Shown piece by piece: positions 56,428-63,994 of a stretch of DNA of 64,000 nt (position 1 is its first letter; every line of letters starts with the position of its first letter). The DNA lies in contig MSGS01000009.1 in assembly GCA_001940855.1 (NCBI GenBank), forward strand, positions 1 through 64,000, in the 5' to 3' direction. The notes under the pieces are model-generated. The model saw only the letters and a program-made list of their open reading frames with translations. It was not told where the DNA came from and did not search any database. This DNA comes from Christensenellaceae bacterium Phil1. GTDB taxonomy: Bacteria; Bacillota; Clostridia; Christensenellales; CAG-138. Both the position numbers and the translations under genes were made by a program.

Positions 56428-56820
56428 AATTCTCTCCGACTAAGTATTCGCCTTTTTGGCATACATTTTATTATAACACACAAACAGACCGCATGGAACG
56501 GTGAAAAGGCATCCTGCGATCTGTTTGGATATAACTTATATTCTTTTCAGTTTAGGCTTATTCCCACTCAAGTCTTAGGCTTTGATTTGGGGTTATAAAA
56601 TGCACTCTCGATACGCATTTTGTCCAAATAATCCACGTATTTCGGGCTGTACATAGGTTCCTTACGAATTTTGTAGCCGTTTTGTAGCCAGCCATTTTAT
56701 GCGTACTAACCATTCGCAACGACTTATTTTGAATGATTTGCGGCAGATTTCGATATGATTCCCGCCAATAATCACCCGGAAATTGACCGCCTGATTCACC
56801 TCAAAAAACATCTTGGAGGT

Positions 56821-57075
56821 ATGACCATGAGCAAACTTATATCCTGTCAATTCAACATAGACACGGCCTGCGTGGAATTGGTTTTTGACGATGGAAGCCA
56901 GATTTCCATTGACTGCACCGCCGTTGAAAACGAAGTTGCCGACAACCGCTTCCAGCGGTCAGAGCTGGATTATCTGATTTACAATGATCCACTTGCGTAT
57001 GCCGATCTGGTTCTGAACGGCGATCCCGAATCCTATTTGAAGGCTGTGACGGAACACAAGCCTTTTGATAGCTGA
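56821..57075 (+). CDS. DUF6061-like small protein (mobile-element associated)
   Basis: SKLISCQFNIDTACVELVFDDGSQISIDCTAVENEVADN...SELDYLIYNDPLAYADL; SD GGAGG. Confidence 0.6.
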   Translation: MTMSKLISCQFNIDTACVELVFDDGSQISIDCTAVENEVADNRFQRSELDYLIYNDPLAYADLVLNGDPESYLKAVTEHKPFDS

Positions 57076-57318: not shown

Positions 57319-57362
57319 TAATTAAAAAAACAAAAGCGACCAACTTTTTTACGGTTGATCGC
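57319..57362 (-). terminator. Intrinsic terminator of the restriction-modification/accessory operon
   Basis: Minus strand GCGATCAAC-cgtaaaaaa-GTTGGTCGC-TTTTGTTTTTTT. Confidence 0.85.
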
Positions 57363-57374
57363 CTTGGGGTGTTA

Positions 57375-59345
57375 TTAGGCGCTTGTGCTTTTTCCTGAAT
57401 CCTTTTTCAGATATTTTTCTTTGTCTTTCTTTAATGCGGACCAGAGCGTGTATATCACACCAACTGCATTTACACCCATAGAGATATACATTGGAATTTT
57501 TGAGTTGCACTTGCTTTCTAAATAAATCGCCAATGCTGTTATTCCAACAAGAACACCTAACTTCCAAACAATACTCCAAATAAATCGAAGAATATTACGC
57601 CAGCGATTCTTTTTTCTCAACGCTTCTGCTTCTTTCAGATGGTACTTATTGAGTTCATCACGGAGCAGAGCATTTTCTTCAGAAGAATCTTTAATTGTAT
57701 TTGCTTGCGCTGCAATTGTTTCATCTTTTTCAGATAGTTTTCGCTCCGAGTCAGCTTTTAGACTTTCAATAACCGCTTCTTTTTCGCTGAGAGCCTTTTG
57801 GTTATTTTTAATCTGTTCTTCATATCTACTCAAATATTCAGGGGTGAAATTCATTATTTCGTCAATATCATCTCCTTTCAAATCTTCTGGGAGAACAGGT
57901 TTGTTTCTAAGCGTAATGATACGAGCAGCAACCTGATCATCATCAATAATGCCGTCTGCATATTCTTTTTTTATTCTTGAAAACTCCTTTTCTGCATTTC
58001 TTGCTATGCTGGCAGACAGAACAATTCGAGCTTTCAATGCTGCGTTCACGCTTGAAGGGAACTTGCTTTGTGAGAAACCATTGCCAAGCTTATACCAAAG
58101 CAAACTGGTTATTCTGTCAAGAGAGACTGCAAAATTACAGATGCTATCTAATCCCTCTGATACTTTGATACTATCTGCCTGTTCTTTTGATATAAGGAGG
58201 GTGGCACGGGTATTTGTTACAATAATGTGTTCAGCTTCGATATCACTACAAAAGCGGTTCCCATTACGGAGCTTGTTAATATGGCTGATAAGTTTAATCG
58301 CCGTTTCTTTTTTCTTTCTCTTATCTTCCTCATCATCATAATCAAAGCTCTCCAAATTGCTGGTGAAGTTTTCTTCACTGTAGTAATCATTTCGGGAATC
58401 TTCCGTAATGCCGAAACCATATTGCAATTCGTAATAAAAATCAGATTTTTTTACATCGACATCGGCAGCAGTTTGACATCCCTCCGTTATTGCTTTCATG
58501 GCAGGTTTATCGAGCAGTCGAACTCGTTTACACTCCACTATTTCACTTGCCGTCCCAAAAAAGTCATCGATTTCTTTTTTGATTTCCGAGAAATAACGAA
58601 GAGTTATCTTTTTCGATTTTTCAGAGTTTGCTATACGAACTTGAGCAAAAAAATCGTTGGCAAATTGTTGAAAAATCGCTCCATTGTATCCGGCAAGACT
58701 AAACAAAACCTCTGTCCCAAGATAAAGCGTTAGCGGCTTTTTGATACTTCCAGTTTCTCCGATACTATGACTTAATCCAATATAGAGGATACTACCTTGG
58801 CGAATTTTATTCAGGCATTCTTGAATCTCCTTGTTCTGCTCATTTTTTAGGACAAACTCACCAATGAATTCTGCATATTTCGTTGAATGCGAAGATACAT
58901 CTTCCACTAAAAAATAGGTAAGTTCCTGCGAAAGGATTTCATCACTAATCGTATTATTGCCAGTTCTAACAGATATGTATTCAGACAGCTGCTGAATTAT
59001 GCGTGTTTCGTATTCATCGGCTTCTCTTTTCGTTTTTTCAAATAGCTCATCCGAGCGCAAATCGGCTTTTGAGATAGTGTATATGCCGTCCGTCAGGTTT
59101 GCACCAGGCATATTTTTAAGAGCGGTCTTAACAACTGCCTCCGGAATCGAAAAAGAGAAATGACTGTTCAAACAGTTCTTCATTTCAACAGCAGAAAATG
59201 AATACAACGAATCAGAAACAATGATATAGTTGATGAACTCTCTAAGAATCTGATAAGGGCTTTGATATTTCTTCACATCCGACAGGCTTTTCAGCGTAGC
59301 AAAAGATGCCATAATCGATGTCCTGTTTGTTTTTTGCAACGTCAT
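57375..59345 (-). CDS. Unknown 656-aa protein: long coiled coil and two C-terminal TM helices, candidate defence accessory
   Basis: SLKADSERKLSEKDETIAAQANTIKDSSEENALLRDELNKYHLKEAEALRKK; ILRFIWSIVWKLGVLVGITALAIYL, IPMYISMGVNAVGVIYTLWSAL. Confidence 0.7.
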   Translation of the reverse strand: MTLQKTNRTSIMASFATLKSLSDVKKYQSPYQILREFINYIIVSDSLYSFSAVEMKNCLNSHFSFSIPEAVVKTALKNMPGANLTDGIYTISKADLRSDELFEKTKREADEYETRIIQQLSEYISVRTGNNTISDEILSQELTYFLVEDVSSHSTKYAEFIGEFVLKNEQNKEIQECLNKIRQGSILYIGLSHSIGETGSIKKPLTLYLGTEVLFSLAGYNGAIFQQFANDFFAQVRIANSEKSKKITLRYFSEIKKEIDDFFGTASEIVECKRVRLLDKPAMKAITEGCQTAADVDVKKSDFYYELQYGFGITEDSRNDYYSEENFTSNLESFDYDDEEDKRKKKETAIKLISHINKLRNGNRFCSDIEAEHIIVTNTRATLLISKEQADSIKVSEGLDSICNFAVSLDRITSLLWYKLGNGFSQSKFPSSVNAALKARIVLSASIARNAEKEFSRIKKEYADGIIDDDQVAARIITLRNKPVLPEDLKGDDIDEIMNFTPEYLSRYEEQIKNNQKALSEKEAVIESLKADSERKLSEKDETIAAQANTIKDSSEENALLRDELNKYHLKEAEALRKKNRWRNILRFIWSIVWKLGVLVGITALAIYLESKCNSKIPMYISMGVNAVGVIYTLWSALKKDKEKYLKKDSGKSTSA

Positions 59346-59383
59346 CTTTTTTACCTCATTTCAGCCGCTCACACAGCGGCAGA
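59343..59383 (-). repeat. Copy A of hsdS-end/SD/start repeat
   Basis: Minus strand CTGCCGCTGTGTGAGCGGCTGAAATGAGGTAAAAAAGATG; same peptide LPLCERLK-stop as the hsdS end. Confidence 0.85.
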
Positions 59384-59401
59384 TTTTATCTTTTTAGTAC
59401 A

Positions 59402-60109
59402 TCATGGATTCTTCTTCAACATACGAGCACGCTTCTTCAATAGGCGTACCAGTCTCCAGCGATCAATACGCTTGGGCATCTTTTGATAAATCTCTCGATA
59501 ATCTGCTTCTTCCGGAATCCAACGTCCGTTTTGAGTAATGCTATGCCCATCAAGCAGATGAAGGAAGAAAGAGGCCTCGATAATCACGGAAATAGAATTG
59601 CTTACACCGGAGCCAATATGATTGTGTTGGTACAGATTACGAGGCCCCTGAAAGAATCCCATAAGCATATGCCTGATGCCGTCCTGCTCATTGCGCTCAG
59701 ATTCGTTTTTCAGATCATTGATTGCAATAAGGGGAGCCCTCTTTATTTCACCGGTTTGCTTGTCTATTTCAAAAGAAAGCGCTCTTGTTGCCAAATCGAA
59801 TCCATGCGAATCCAAGCCTGACTTCTTTTTGAGATAACTCTCCACAGCCACAAAAGCTTCACGTGCTGCTGATTCAAACTCCGATTTATATATGAGTTGT
59901 ACCGCATCCGATAACGCTGCGTGGATATTGTATACCTCAAAAAATCCTTTGAGCTTCTTTAGCGAATATGGCATTAAACTGCCGCAACAAGGACAGAATG
60001 TGAAATCATAAAAGTCAAACCCATATGTTCCGTCGTTATATTCCCTAAGTTGCTTTCTTCTGGGCGGAAGAGAACACCCATTAGGACAAGCGTATTCTTT
60101 TCTCCTCAT
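59402..60109 (-). CDS. TIGR02391/Ymh-like protein with N-terminal zinc ribbon; HEPN-like RNLYQH motif
   Basis: ACPNGCS...CPCCGSLMPY; EFESAAREAFVAVESYLKKKSG; MGFFQGPRNLYQHNHIGS. Confidence 0.75.
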   Translation of the reverse strand: MRRKEYACPNGCSLPPRRKQLREYNDGTYGFDFYDFTFCPCCGSLMPYSLKKLKGFFEVYNIHAALSDAVQLIYKSEFESAAREAFVAVESYLKKKSGLDSHGFDLATRALSFEIDKQTGEIKRAPLIAINDLKNESERNEQDGIRHMLMGFFQGPRNLYQHNHIGSGVSNSISVIIEASFFLHLLDGHSITQNGRWIPEEADYREIYQKMPKRIDRWRLVRLLKKRARMLKKNP

Positions 60110-60163
60110 TGCGGCTCACCTCATTTTATTCAGCATCACAGGGATTCTCTTTTGGGCGATGCC

Positions 60164-61018
60164 TTAAGTACAGTTGTCTTTTAGTACAGCCGATAACCAC
60201 GGACTCTCGTCTGTATACCCTTGCAGTACATCGATGACGTGCTTATCGGTTGTCATCGCAAATACAAATGGCGCAATATGATGCGATGACAATACGGCTT
60301 TAAACTCATCACCTTCACGAATTTCTTTGGGCGGAATAGTGTTTTCGTTTAAGTTGTGTGTTTTCTGTGGTGGTGGATTCTTATATACCAACCATGCAAT
60401 TTCGTAAGAAATTGTACTTTCACACCATTGCCCCATTAAGTTTTTAAAAAACACACGAATAATAAGTTTAGCACCGGTATAATGATGATAGCTAGGATTT
60501 GTTCTGATGCGTTCCCAGTTTTTTTCTGAGGCTTTTCTTAGTTCGCAAATCAACGCCTTGACTTCGGAGGTTTCAAAATGGATATTAATATCCGTCTCCT
60601 CTTCTGCTGATAATGCTTGTGTAAAACCTGGGAGTAAAGATGCTGGAAGCAACTTTTTATTCCCGGCAGAATCCTCCGAAAACTGCAATTCAATATCGGC
60701 TAACGTATAAACATTAATTGCGGGCGAATCACCAACATTTCTAAGCTTGATTGTAAATCCCAGCTGCATACGGGTATAGTCCGTGGTATCCCAAGCAGAT
60801 CCACATGAATCAGTTACATATGGAACAATACACGGTTGCTTATCTATTTTCATTTGTTTCGCAACGAGCTCTGCTGATTCCTTAGCGTAATTTGCTTGAC
60901 GCTTGGTGTGTCCAACATAAATGATCGTGACAACAACCATAATCAGCGAAGAAAGCAGAGATAGTACTCCTGCATAGTCACTGTTGATGATTTTTATAAA
61001 TTCCAGCATCTTTTTCAC
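60164..61018 (-). CDS. Unknown membrane-anchored 284-aa protein (probable start ATG 61009)
   Basis: N-terminal TM AGVLSLLSSLIMVVVTIIYVG then soluble domain; follows hsdS closely. Confidence 0.65.
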   Translation of the reverse strand: MKKMLEFIKIINSDYAGVLSLLSSLIMVVVTIIYVGHTKRQANYAKESAELVAKQMKIDKQPCIVPYVTDSCGSAWDTTDYTRMQLGFTIKLRNVGDSPAINVYTLADIELQFSEDSAGNKKLLPASLLPGFTQALSAEEETDINIHFETSEVKALICELRKASEKNWERIRTNPSYHHYTGAKLIIRVFFKNLMGQWCESTISYEIAWLVYKNPPPQKTHNLNENTIPPKEIREGDEFKAVLSSHHIAPFVFAMTTDKHVIDVLQGYTDESPWLSAVLKDNCT

Positions 61019-61047
61019 CTCATTTCAGCCGTTCACACAACGGCAGG
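61007..61047 (-). repeat. Copy B of repeat, at the authentic hsdS 3' end
   Basis: Minus strand CTGCCGTTGTGTGAACGGCTGAAATGAGGTGAAAAAGATG. Confidence 0.85.
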
Positions 61048-62477
61048 ATTCCTTCCAGTTTGGCGACGATACGATTTTGCTCGGCCAGAGGAGGGAGCGG
61101 AATCAAAACATTACCCAATTCTTTTGCGGGTAATTGTCTCACAGCTGTTCCGGTTACCTTAGAATCAATATACCTAAGGTAAAATGGGGAAGCCAGAAAA
61201 CTTGCCATATAGTGACAAAGCGCTGTATTTATGCATCGAATAATAACCATTTGAGCACAAATAAATCCTGTATGGTGCTGTTCGTCCGCAACAAACAATG
61301 CACACTTACCGACCGAACCACGCAGTAAACAGATAAAGTCTTTGTCTTGTAATTTGCCATTTCCAAGTTCAGCAAACTTCTCCATAGATATGTAGCGTAC
61401 ATTATCGAATGACATTACTGCATCACACATATCTTTTGCTCCGAAAAACGGTACGCCAAAATCAACATAATCCTTCTCAACTGGATATTTGCCACTGCGG
61501 TCTCCGTTTTCTAATATTGCAATCTGAGATAGTCTAACCCATTTCCAACTCTCAGGAATGTCAAACGGAATCTCATCCTCTGCAATTTCAGCCAACGGTT
61601 TTTCCTTTTTGATTGTGCCTTCTTTGATCAGTCGCTTTTTTTCTTCCTGAATCTGCCGATATAGTTCTTCACCGGTTCCTTCTTCCGATCTTTGATCCAC
61701 AAGCTTACCTTGGATGGCATATTGCAGAATGGACTTCTTCATATCCTCCGGGAACTTGGCGTTAAACTGCTCCAGCTTCTCATAGGAAGCAGCATAGCGG
61801 TCAACCAAAGGGAGGAGTTCTTCAATCTTGGCAACGATGCGCTGTAGCTCGTTTAACGGTGCCAATGGAATCATCAAGTTGGCGATGCTTTTACTATTCA
61901 AGGTTTTTCCCTTAATAGCATTTTTACTATCTCCCCATTGGGTGACAATCGGGAGAATGTAGAACAAATAGTCTCTAAAATAATTCTCAGTATCTACATA
62001 TGGATAAATCGAGATTATCGCCTCGTTATGAACAGCATCAATATCCAATATGGAAGTTCTTCCAACTGTGAGTTTAAAGCTCATAAGCAAGGTTCCTTTA
62101 GTTGAGATACCTCCAAATTTTTCTTCCAGTGCTTTTTGAGATACCATTTCTTTTGTGTAACTGATATGGCCATAATCTTTCATATCAGAGATTGAAACCC
62201 AGTGAATATCATTCTGCCACCAAACGGGTTCAGCTCTTGGTGGAGTTTTGCCCATTGAGCAATCCACCAATTCTCCAAATTTACACCATTTCCAAGAAGA
62301 TGGAATATCGAAAGGAATTTCTTCCTCCACTATAGGTGTCACGTTTTTGTTCGGTTTCGAGACTTGTTGCATTTTGCAAAAAAGATCCTCGCCTGTACCA
62401 TCCTCTGGCTTTTGTTCTACGAGCTTGCCTTGCATAGCGTACTTCAGAATACTTGCCTTTAACTGTTGGGGGGTCAT
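61020..62477 (-). CDS. hsdS: Type I restriction-modification specificity subunit HsdS
   Basis: Two TRDs with repeated SILKYAMQGKLVEQ / SILQYAIQGKLVDQ and LQRIVAKIEELLPLVDRY / QNRIVAKLEGILPLCERLK. Confidence 0.95.
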   Translation of the reverse strand: MTPQQLKASILKYAMQGKLVEQKPEDGTGEDLFCKMQQVSKPNKNVTPIVEEEIPFDIPSSWKWCKFGELVDCSMGKTPPRAEPVWWQNDIHWVSISDMKDYGHISYTKEMVSQKALEEKFGGISTKGTLLMSFKLTVGRTSILDIDAVHNEAIISIYPYVDTENYFRDYLFYILPIVTQWGDSKNAIKGKTLNSKSIANLMIPLAPLNELQRIVAKIEELLPLVDRYAASYEKLEQFNAKFPEDMKKSILQYAIQGKLVDQRSEEGTGEELYRQIQEEKKRLIKEGTIKKEKPLAEIAEDEIPFDIPESWKWVRLSQIAILENGDRSGKYPVEKDYVDFGVPFFGAKDMCDAVMSFDNVRYISMEKFAELGNGKLQDKDFICLLRGSVGKCALFVADEQHHTGFICAQMVIIRCINTALCHYMASFLASPFYLRYIDSKVTGTAVRQLPAKELGNVLIPLPPLAEQNRIVAKLEGILPLCERLK

Positions 62478-63994
62478 TCTGTTACACCTCCCGGCAGCAA
62501 TGCTTCCAGCTCTGCAAGCACCTTGTCGATTTCGGCATTGAGGGCGGTTCGTCTCTCCTGATACTCTCTGATCGTATCAAGTGGATCGAGAACTTCTTCT
62601 TCCTCATGAGGATAACCGCAGAAATCGATGTTGCATCCCTGTTCATTCAGCAGATAATCAGCGGTATATTTCTGCGCCTTAAAATATTCGCCGTCGGAAA
62701 TTACCTCTCTGTTGTTCCACCAAGCAATACAATCATCAAAGTGCTTTAACTCCATCGGCTTGGTTTTGGAAAAGTGCTTTCTGTCAGACGGAATATCCAC
62801 TCTATAGAACCATGTTTCTGTTGTCTGCTTTGTGTTATCGAAGAACAACAGATTGGTGGTAATGGAAGTATAGGGACTGAACACGGAGCCGGGCAGTCTG
62901 ACAAGGGTGTGCAGGTTAAACTCGCCAATGAGCTTTTTCTTGATATTCACTTTCGCATTGTCCAGACCGAACAAGAAACCATCAGGCACGACAACAGCAG
63001 CTCTGCCGTTTTTCTTCAAACGGTACAGGATCACCGACATGAACAGATCGGCGGTCTCAGAGCTTGCCAGATCATCGGGGAAGAATCCCTGAATGGACTT
63101 GTCCTCATGTCCGCCATAAGGAGGGTTCATCAGAATCACATCGAACTTATCATCATCCGTATAGTCCAAAAGATTATGCTTCAGCGAGTTCGTGTGATAG
63201 ATGTTTGGAACCTCAATGTCATGTAGCAGCATATTGGTTACGCAGAGCAGATACGGGAACGGCTTTTTCTCGACTCCGTAAATGCTGTCATCAAGCTGCT
63301 TTTGAGCAGAAGTATCGGTTACCTGCTTGGATAACTGTCCAAGCCAGGAAGTAATAAAGCCACCCGTACCGCAAGCGAAGTCAGCCATCTTTTCTCCCAG
63401 TTTCGGCTTGATCATCAGCGCCATGAACTCGGTAACTGCTCTCGGCGTGTAAAACTCACCGGAGGAACCGGCAGACTGCAATTCTCTCAGAATTTCTTCA
63501 TAGACAAAACCGAAAGCATGACTTTCCTTGACATCATCAAATTCGATTTCATCAATGACATCAATGACCTGACGGAGATAAACGCCGTCCTTCATGTAGT
63601 TATTAGCATCCTCAAAGGTCGATTTCACGATTGCTTTCTTTATCGGAGTGTCAGGTGTAACCTTGATACCCTCATAGACAATCGTGTCGCCTTCTTTTAC
63701 ATCATTGCCTTTCAGCACCGGGAACAAGGTGTTGTTGACGAAATTCAGCAGCTTATCTCCGGTCATAGCGTGACCGTTGCTGTCTGCCTTTGCCCAATTT
63801 CTCCATCTGAGGTCTTCGGGAATTATGGATTCGTAGTTGTCCTCATTCAGTTCCCAATCGTCTTCTTTGGCATCATAGACTTTCAGGAAGAGCATCCATA
63901 CTATCTGCTCAATTCGCTGAGCATCGCCGTTGATACCTGCGTCCATGCGCATAATATCACGGATTCTTTTTATAAAACCTGACTGCATCGCCAT
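62474..63994 (-). CDS. hsdM: Type I N6-adenine DNA methyltransferase HsdM
   Basis: EFYTPRAVTEFM, FACGTGGFITSWL, ILMNPPYGGHED; 4-nt overlap with hsdS. Confidence 0.96.
   Translation of the reverse strand: MAMQSGFIKRIRDIMRMDAGINGDAQRIEQIVWMLFLKVYDAKEDDWELNEDNYESIIPEDLRWRNWAKADSNGHAMTGDKLLNFVNNTLFPVLKGNDVKEGDTIVYEGIKVTPDTPIKKAIVKSTFEDANNYMKDGVYLRQVIDVIDEIEFDDVKESHAFGFVYEEILRELQSAGSSGEFYTPRAVTEFMALMIKPKLGEKMADFACGTGGFITSWLGQLSKQVTDTSAQKQLDDSIYGVEKKPFPYLLCVTNMLLHDIEVPNIYHTNSLKHNLLDYTDDDKFDVILMNPPYGGHEDKSIQGFFPDDLASSETADLFMSVILYRLKKNGRAAVVVPDGFLFGLDNAKVNIKKKLIGEFNLHTLVRLPGSVFSPYTSITTNLLFFDNTKQTTETWFYRVDIPSDRKHFSKTKPMELKHFDDCIAWWNNREVISDGEYFKAQKYTADYLLNEQGCNIDFCGYPHEEEEVLDPLDTIREYQERRTALNAEIDKVLAELEALLPGGVTE

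Follow-up and report, generated by a model that had tools for sequence, protein, structure and literature searches.

The type I restriction-modification (R-M) operon described here, hsdRMS on a mobilizable element at guaA, has probably acquired three additional genes, one after another, at the hsdS 3′ end, a reading to which we assign a probability of about 0.6. Scars of the hsdS end lie between genes of the operon, and related operons have exchanged genes at the same joint. The features concerned are listed below; all but hsdR lie in the window, by which we mean the whole analysed stretch of 64,000 nt.

56558..56569, plus strand: left att core of the integrative element, TTATTCCCACTC, the reverse complement of the guaA 3′ end GAGTGGGAATAA
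56672..56689, plus strand: arm-type integrase-site-like repeat, TTTTGTAGCC...TTTGTAGCC, just inside the element end
56755..57075, plus strand: DUF6061 gene inside the element (PF19537, E = 4.3e-43)
57319..57366, minus strand: intrinsic terminator closing the operon (MFE -14.6 kcal/mol, z = -3.72, T-tract)
57375..59345, minus strand: ORF656, with a predicted N-terminal wHTH-like region, conserved core, long coiled coil and C-terminal TM segment(s)
59343..59382, minus strand: orphan hsdS 3′ tail, CTGCCGCTGTGTGAGCGGCTGAAATGAGGTAAAAAAGATG, reading LPLCERLK-stop just before ORF656 (37/40 nt to the true tail)
59402..60109, minus strand: ORF235, with N-terminal Cys pairs (zinc-ribbon-like) and a Ymh HEPN domain (motif R157-N158-x3-H162)
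60116..60126, minus strand: stop/SD-type motif AAATGAGGTGA before ORF235
60164..61009, minus strand: ORF284, 281 aa from the conserved ATG, with an N-terminal TM segment, a helix and a predicted beta-rich domain
61007..61046, minus strand: true hsdS 3′ tail, LPLCERLK-TGA overlapping GAGGTGA, the Shine-Dalgarno (SD) sequence of the next gene
61020..62477, minus strand: hsdS, type I specificity subunit (PADLOC Specificity_I, E = 2.9e-135; PF01420, E = 5.3e-20)
62474..63994, minus strand: hsdM, type I methyltransferase with NPPY motif (PADLOC MTase_I, E = 5.2e-167)
G000:C9:63997-66339: hsdR, upstream of hsdM and just outside the window (780 aa; SWI2/SNF2, E = 5.9e-22)

The original prediction had described a type I R-M operon with accessory genes attached, and this layout is supported. 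hsdM and hsdS overlap by 4 nt (62474-63994 and 61020-62477, both on the minus strand), and three close ORFs follow 3′ of hsdS on the same strand (60164-61018, 59402-60109 and 57375-59345, with gaps of 1-10, 54 and 56 nt). The strong terminator expected behind the operon is seen as a hairpin with a T-tract; a standard terminator scan, limited to loops of 8 nt, did not report it, probably owing to its 9-nt loop. The AT content is raised as described, with a GC content of 38-46% in the operon and about 50-55% in most of the window. As hsdR is present just beyond the window, the gene order is hsdR-hsdM-hsdS-ORF284-ORF235-ORF656, and an HsdR with an SF2 SWI2/SNF2 motor, HsdM and HsdS are encoded at one locus. 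Membership in the MADS systems was considered and rejected: the type I models score far better than mad2/mad5, and the operon has no other mad genes.

A mobilizable element of ~15.8 kb, located at the guaA 3′ end and equipped with an integrase and a Mob_Pre relaxase, carries the operon as cargo. Both hsdR and this status as cargo had been overlooked in the original prediction. The relaxase was assigned by profile match (Mob_Pre, E = 1.5e-30), and the putative integrase is a 357-aa tyrosine-integrase-like ORF assigned by sequence only. The left att core matches the guaA 3′ end at G000:C9:72396-72407 as a direct repeat in 12 of 12 positions. Integrase, relaxase and att direct repeats, the marks of an integrative mobilizable element, are all present. 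The repeat at 56672..56689 matches a repeat beside the integrase at the opposite element end in 16 of 18 positions and may be an arm-type integrase site. In a same-genus genome checked for an empty guaA site, the left flanking gene was absent beside guaA and the flank differed. The att core GAGTGGGA is common to the guaA-targeting GIsul2 (PMC9376610) and the present element. GIsul2 and other guaA-targeting integrative elements are alike in their insertion at the guaA 3′ end, but differ in cargo, which here consists of the Mob_Pre relaxase, hsdRMS and the accessory genes.

The joints between the genes carry the argument for stepwise gain. ORF284 is placed directly behind the intact hsdS tail (LPLCERLK-TGAGGTGAAAAAG-ATG). 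The hsdS stop codon overlaps the SD sequence of the next gene (AAA-TGA-GGTGA...ATG), and a gene joining at the conserved tail would therefore become part of the R-M transcript and find a ribosome-binding site in place; the overlap may also couple translation. An orphan tail with 37/40 matching nucleotides, as found before ORF656, was expected 0 times in 100 shuffles. In the 64 kb, the stop/SD motif AAATGAGGT[AG]A has exactly three copies, one immediately ahead of each of the three genes, compared with 0.06 expected; the copy before ORF235 is possibly a decayed hsdS tail. A convergent origin of the shared motif, in which translational coupling favoured a strong stop/SD junction and common descent played no part, is highly improbable. 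GAGGTGA does make a good SD sequence, stop/SD overlap is common and the ORF235 leader has the motif alone in common, but before ORF656 the match (37/40) extends upstream through the LPLCERLK codons in non-coding DNA, and the hsdS fragment of another locus (L079) is 75% identical over 32 residues. With gain at the hsdS end, a newcomer joining at the tail would drag along a short hsdS piece, which would stay as a scar once later cassettes inserted ahead of it. Homologous or illegitimate recombination may have caused the joints.

To look for the tail elsewhere, a degenerate pattern was run against 391 genomes of the class. It was found at four places in three genomes (two in the own genome and one each in L093 and L079), and the reversed control pattern gave none. 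The exact 21-nt joint was absent from the viral contigs searched; tail-pattern matches in two viral contigs (L087, L088) lie inside unrelated phage genes and were dismissed as chance. Most other hsdS genes of the class that were examined end without this tail, and we thus assign the joint to one hsdS lineage. A hairpin-based mobile unit was also considered and rejected. The tail can fold in the own two copies (-9 and -12 kcal/mol), whereas in L009, L079 and L093 folding is poor or absent, which makes the hairpin a by-product of the coding sequence. Our full-text searches, in which literature coverage was incomplete, returned no description of hsdS-tail scars.

Outside the own genome, the sample of joints is small, which weighs against this reading: it comprises four loci with an hsdS tail and an accessory gene, and one with the motif only. 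The sister R-M operon L093 (hsdR 70%, hsdM 72% and hsdS 41% identical) has the same tail, followed by a different HEPN-like protein (RNKFEH) and an AAA/nSTAND ATPase. In L008, an ORF284 homolog after the hsdS tail precedes zinc ribbon, TM-beta and HEPN-like genes, and the adjoining hsd genes are broken, with an hsdR/hsdS deletion. In L009, the ORF284 homolog stands behind an orphan tail (TPSLCERLK-stop), with no R-M gene within the 16.8 kb covered at this locus. In L079, an hsdS fragment of 32 codons (75% identical) immediately precedes a bSEFIR gene (PADLOC, E = 5.6e-70) accompanied by a Swt1-type HEPN gene (E = 9.4e-5); the joint is of the same type, and bSEFIR itself is absent from the window. 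The motif-only locus, L040, has the 3′ end of an ORF235 relative (89% DNA identity), then a DUF6236 gene joined at the motif, and no ORF656. That established defence families stand at comparable joints in sister loci supports the defence context of the original prediction.

These loci also bear on a rather unlikely alternative: that complete hsdS genes, each with a follower, were once duplicated and later deleted, and that the orphan tails are their remains and not scars of capture. Extra hsdS genes are frequent in type I loci, L079 retains 32 hsdS codons and L008 has its hsdR/hsdS deletion. Yet the own scar spans only about nine codons, and those of L009 and L079 adjoin unrelated genes with no R-M nearby.

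ORF235 is a Ymh HEPN protein and probably an RNase effector. Of the zinc-ribbon/Ymh-like identity originally proposed, the Ymh part is confirmed by the match to Hypoth_Ymh PF09509 (E = 1.4e-14; 54.4 bits against a curated cut-off of 25), and the N-terminal Cys pairs are zinc-ribbon-like. TIGR02391 is matched as well (E = 6e-11; 42.5 bits against 39.45). The Rx4H motif is intact, with R157, N158 and H162 invariant in an alignment of five sequences, which supports a HEPN-like protein in the cassette. With both curated cut-offs exceeded, the invariant motif, the mobile element and the R-M neighbour, ORF235 falls within the Ymh HEPN family, whose association with R-M is already published (PMC3710099). 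It differs in its fusion to an N-terminal Cys-rich zinc-ribbon-like segment and not to pMORC, AbiJ-NTD1 or AbiTii. Profile searches found only the Ymh HEPN domain and the Cys pairs, with no ATPase or PrrC-type regulatory domain. The match to PADLOC PD-Lambda-3_B is weak and partial (E = 1.6e-6, 111 aa) and no A-subunit relative was found among the neighbours, so the B plus A pair of PD-Lambda-3 is lacking. When plasmid DNA was searched with the full stretch of the three genes, the sole match was a 176-nt ORF235 end in Pusillibacter.

ORF284 is a membrane-anchored protein, with a single N-terminal TM segment (13-39 by GTG numbering). It had been given as a TM protein of 284 aa; the TM part stands, while the start is probably the ATG at 61009 (281 aa), since both homologs begin there. 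These are 90% (L008) and 78% (L009) identical, and dN/dS values of 0.11-0.14 indicate purifying selection. Profile searches gave no HMM match, and the AlphaFold model (pLDDT 43) was too poor for use. Further matches in L010 and L011 were discarded as spurious, being short and inside LpxC/FabZ fusions. We suggest that ORF284 is a membrane-anchored partner or sensor able to move alone.

ORF656 represents an undescribed membrane-protein family of mobile elements. Its expected coiled-coil/TM character is seen in hydropathy and a low-confidence model, where a long predicted helix precedes a C-terminal hydrophobic stretch at 585-610; together with ORF284 this supports two membrane proteins in the cassette. 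Homologs 21-32% identical were found at seven loci (L012-L015, L038, L039 and L042). The family occurs solo on plasmids and in prophages, where relatives adjoin a CI-type repressor or sit in other mobile cargo. Pfam, NCBIfam, PADLOC and solved structures gave no meaningful match for it; sequence searches of solved structures returned nothing meaningful. With the AlphaFold model, likewise too poor for use (pLDDT 54), the PDB search gave nothing at E ≤ 0.001 and only weak winged-helix matches. A PIN-like motif in the conserved core, also without Pfam or PDB match, reads LDTE in relatives and LGTE in the own copy, and because Gly replaces Asp, nuclease activity is doubtful. As a membrane-anchored cytoplasmic effector that would meet incoming DNA, ORF656 may be likened to the membrane-bound nuclease SNIPE (PD-Lambda-1), from which it differs in lacking DUF4041 and GIY-YIG, in its C-terminal TM and in the absence of the motif Asp from the own copy. 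It may derive from the phage/plasmid pool and act on its own, as an exclusion or defence protein anchored in the membrane, and its family would be a simple one-gene candidate.

The original prediction had gone further and joined ORF284 as sensor, ORF235 as HEPN RNase and the coiled-coil ORF656 into one composite system, perhaps triggered by R-M inhibition. This is improbable. The genes share a strand, gaps of 10-56 nt and one terminator, the HEPN motif of ORF235 is intact and HEPN-type genes occur at three other hsdS-tail loci. However, all three genes, or relatives of them, are also found apart: ORF284 without ORF235 or ORF656 in L008 and L009, the ORF235 relative of L040 with DUF6236 in place of ORF656, and ORF656 relatives without the other two at seven loci. 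The trio was found in no other genome among those searched, which covered the taxonomic family for all three ORFs and the order for ORF656, and the joints fall exactly at gene borders. Within this sample, the lack of co-conservation that the original prediction had itself named as refuting was thus observed. A backup role when R-M is inhibited could be imagined by analogy with PrrC, but for ORF284 it is opposed by the intact L009 copy, which has no R-M gene in the 16.8 kb covered.

A narrower version, in which the R-M complex keeps a guardian pair of ORF284 and ORF235 inactive until anti-restriction proteins free it, as with PrrC, and in which ORF656 is an unrelated neighbour, also seems unlikely. 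It draws on HEPN genes behind hsdS at several loci, on the joint presence of a TM/beta protein, a zinc ribbon and a HEPN protein here and in L008, and on the precedent of PrrC and the proposal of R-M-linked HEPN proteins (PMC3710099; PMC12707154). PrrC in EcoprrI and HEPN proteins in R-M neighbourhoods (PMC3710099) are indeed alike in having a HEPN-type gene in an operon with full hsdRMS and in the proposed second line of defence. ORF235 likewise lies in a type I R-M operon, but as a Ymh HEPN protein without the ATPase that PrrC-type guardians have fused to a HEPN anticodon nuclease or their regulatory domain, and behind hsdS with two unrelated membrane proteins. Moreover, ORF284 is intact (dN/dS 0.11-0.14) both in L009 and beside the broken hsd genes of L008.

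We return to gain one by one at the hsdS end, in which the three genes would be neighbours on a shared transcript and not subunits of a single machine. ORF235 may then form a second line of defence behind R-M, as a HEPN effector of the ribonuclease type by which infected cells are shut down.

Defence islands are known for swapping genes, but one rarely sees the molecular joints. In the present operon the joint is readable: the stop codon of hsdS also serves as ribosome-binding site for the gene behind it, and former cassette positions are marked by orphan copies. Our best reading is that the hsdS 3′ end is a site for swapping in and co-expressing genes with a presumed defence function. More tentatively, and at somewhat less than even odds, the hsdS 3′ end in one gut Clostridia R-M lineage could be a general docking site, where tail-bearing cassettes recombine in, stack and exchange, integron-like but with no dedicated integrase, and where orphan tails mark defence genes, including undescribed ones. 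If this is general, LPLCERLK-TGAGGT, like the corresponding strings of other hsdS lineages, would provide a search handle for new defence genes. The tail string already leads to a bSEFIR gene and several HEPN-type genes.

The window comes from contig C9 in a draft genome of 2.85 Mb. In profile searches, HsdM and HsdS of its type I restriction-modification (R-M) operon matched the type I models (E = 5e-167 and E = 3e-135), and HsdR contains the SWI2/SNF2 motor. The 4-nt overlap of hsdM and hsdS in the original prediction was confirmed, and the observation as a whole was mostly correct, although the setting is larger than it described:

Minus strand: hsdR (just beyond the window), followed inside the window by hsdM and hsdS
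60164-61009, minus strand: ORF284
59402-60109, minus strand: ORF235
57375-59345, minus strand: ORF656, followed by the terminator
Upstream of the R-M operon, assigned from sequence: RecA/RepA-like ATPase; XRE-type regulator; tyrosine-integrase-like gene, its end adjoining guaA
53760-54974, plus strand: GmrSD-N/HNH gene (GC 39%, PADLOC NsnA E = 5.6e-71), a separate AT-rich restriction-type gene just beyond the element boundary

The start of ORF284 is very likely the ATG at 61009, since both homologs start there.

The R-M operon is the cargo of an element about 15.8 kb long, which also carries a Mob_Pre relaxase upstream of the operon (E = 1.5e-30). The final 12 nt of guaA (GAGTGGGAATAA) form a direct repeat at 56558-56569, and TTTGTAGCC repeats just within each end of the element. 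The guaA core, GAGTGGGA, is identical to that of GIsul2 (PMC9376610). No empty guaA site was found, because the same-genus genome has a different flank.

The three genes behind hsdS had been proposed to act as one composite module. This was not borne out, as relatives of the genes occur apart and no trio was seen in the searched genomes. Apart from the own genome, all three were absent from the 103 family genomes searched, and ORF656 from the 396 order genomes. A cassette array at the 3' end of hsdS is the better reading. hsdS ends in LPLCERLK (AAA-TGA-GGTGAAAAAG-ATG), its stop overlapping the ORF284 Shine-Dalgarno sequence. The 40 nt around this joint recur (37/40) as non-coding sequence just before ORF656, while shuffled sequences gave 0. 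The 64 kb contain the shorter pattern AAATGAGGT[AG]A three times (0.06 expected), each time immediately before ORF284, ORF235 or ORF656. A degenerate tail pattern, searched for in 391 class genomes, turned up in four places, two of them in the own genome; its reversed control turned up in none. Two matches in viral contigs were dismissed as chance.

The other two places lie in L093 and L079. A sister R-M operon, L093 (hsdR 70%, hsdM 72%, hsdS 41%), shares the tail, behind which stand a HEPN-like gene (RNKFEH) and its partner, an AAA/nSTAND ATPase (L093:7043-9112) that also has an RxxxxH motif in its C-terminus. In L079, an hsdS remnant of 32 codons (75%) lies immediately 5' of a bSEFIR gene (E = 5.6e-70), with a Swt1-type HEPN gene. 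ORF284 has two close relatives, in L008 (90%) and L009 (78%), both open and under purifying selection (dN/dS 0.11–0.14). In L008 the hsdS tail is followed by the ORF284 homolog and then by zinc-ribbon, TM-beta and HEPN-like genes. The start of hsdR is fused to the end of hsdS there (L008:7215-7995), with ORF284 intact, which reflects decay of the R-M operon or else a MAG misassembly. The ORF284 homolog of L009 is preceded by an orphan tail, and an N-terminally shortened ThsB (Thoeris TIR; L009:9008-9463) directly follows it. No R-M genes were found in the 16.8 kb of this locus, and the persistence of ORF284 there argues that this gene at least is independent of R-M. L009 also encodes a PHP/ATPase protein (L009:3824-5932) with a match to PDC-M49A, a candidate defence family (E = 1.5e-276).

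The ORF235 region shares its last 176 nt, at 89%, with the beginning of a Pusillibacter plasmid record (L040). This record starts inside the gene, and DUF6236, not ORF656, comes next. The DUF6236 gene (L040:186-1238) has a TM segment and adjoins AIPR and methylase genes. Alignments between loci stop at the joints, that of L008 at the ORF235 leader and that of L040 at the ORF656 leader. The gene array, its scars and gene exchange at the tail are demonstrated.

A zinc-ribbon gene and a TM/beta gene form a conserved pair (L008:8903-9621, L094:6615-7384, L095:4552-5288) that occurs in a Lachnospiraceae hsdS locus, on a plasmid of Paenisporosarcina close to Hachiman and GmrSD-type genes, and on E. 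coli ColV-type plasmids, followed by a different third gene at each site. It is possibly an undescribed defence pair.

ORF284 has a single N-terminal TM segment and probably a beta-rich domain; profile and solved-structure sequence searches gave no match. ORF235 belongs to the Ymh HEPN proteins. When it is aligned with four plasmid relatives, R157, N158 and H162 do not vary, so that its RNase-type motif is intact. Weak profile matches were to PD-Lambda-3_B and an Argonaute-associated HEPN model. A published HEPN survey counts Ymh proteins among the active HEPN domains and among the neighbours of R-M genes (PMC3710099). In ORF656, a coiled coil and a C-terminal membrane segment accompany a conserved core; the core's family motif LDTE (LGTE in the own copy) is reminiscent of PIN nucleases, but no profile or structure match supported a PIN identity. 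Its relatives (21–32%) are solitary genes, found on plasmids of Citrobacter, Duffyella and Pantoea, in a Helicobacter prophage and in two P2-like viral contigs. In a third viral contig, the likewise solitary relative adjoins a CI-type XRE/S24 repressor (L042:5384-7261). The vicinity of such repressors is a classic location of superinfection-exclusion cargo.

We propose that the conserved hsdS 3' end is where genes join, and that they would be expressed from the R-M transcript. ORF284 would be a membrane-bound protein, ORF235 a growth-stopping RNase effector, possibly a PrrC-like guardian, and ORF656 an independent exclusion or defence protein. Each element belongs to a known kind; what is new is a scar mechanism that can be read, together with the ORF656 family.
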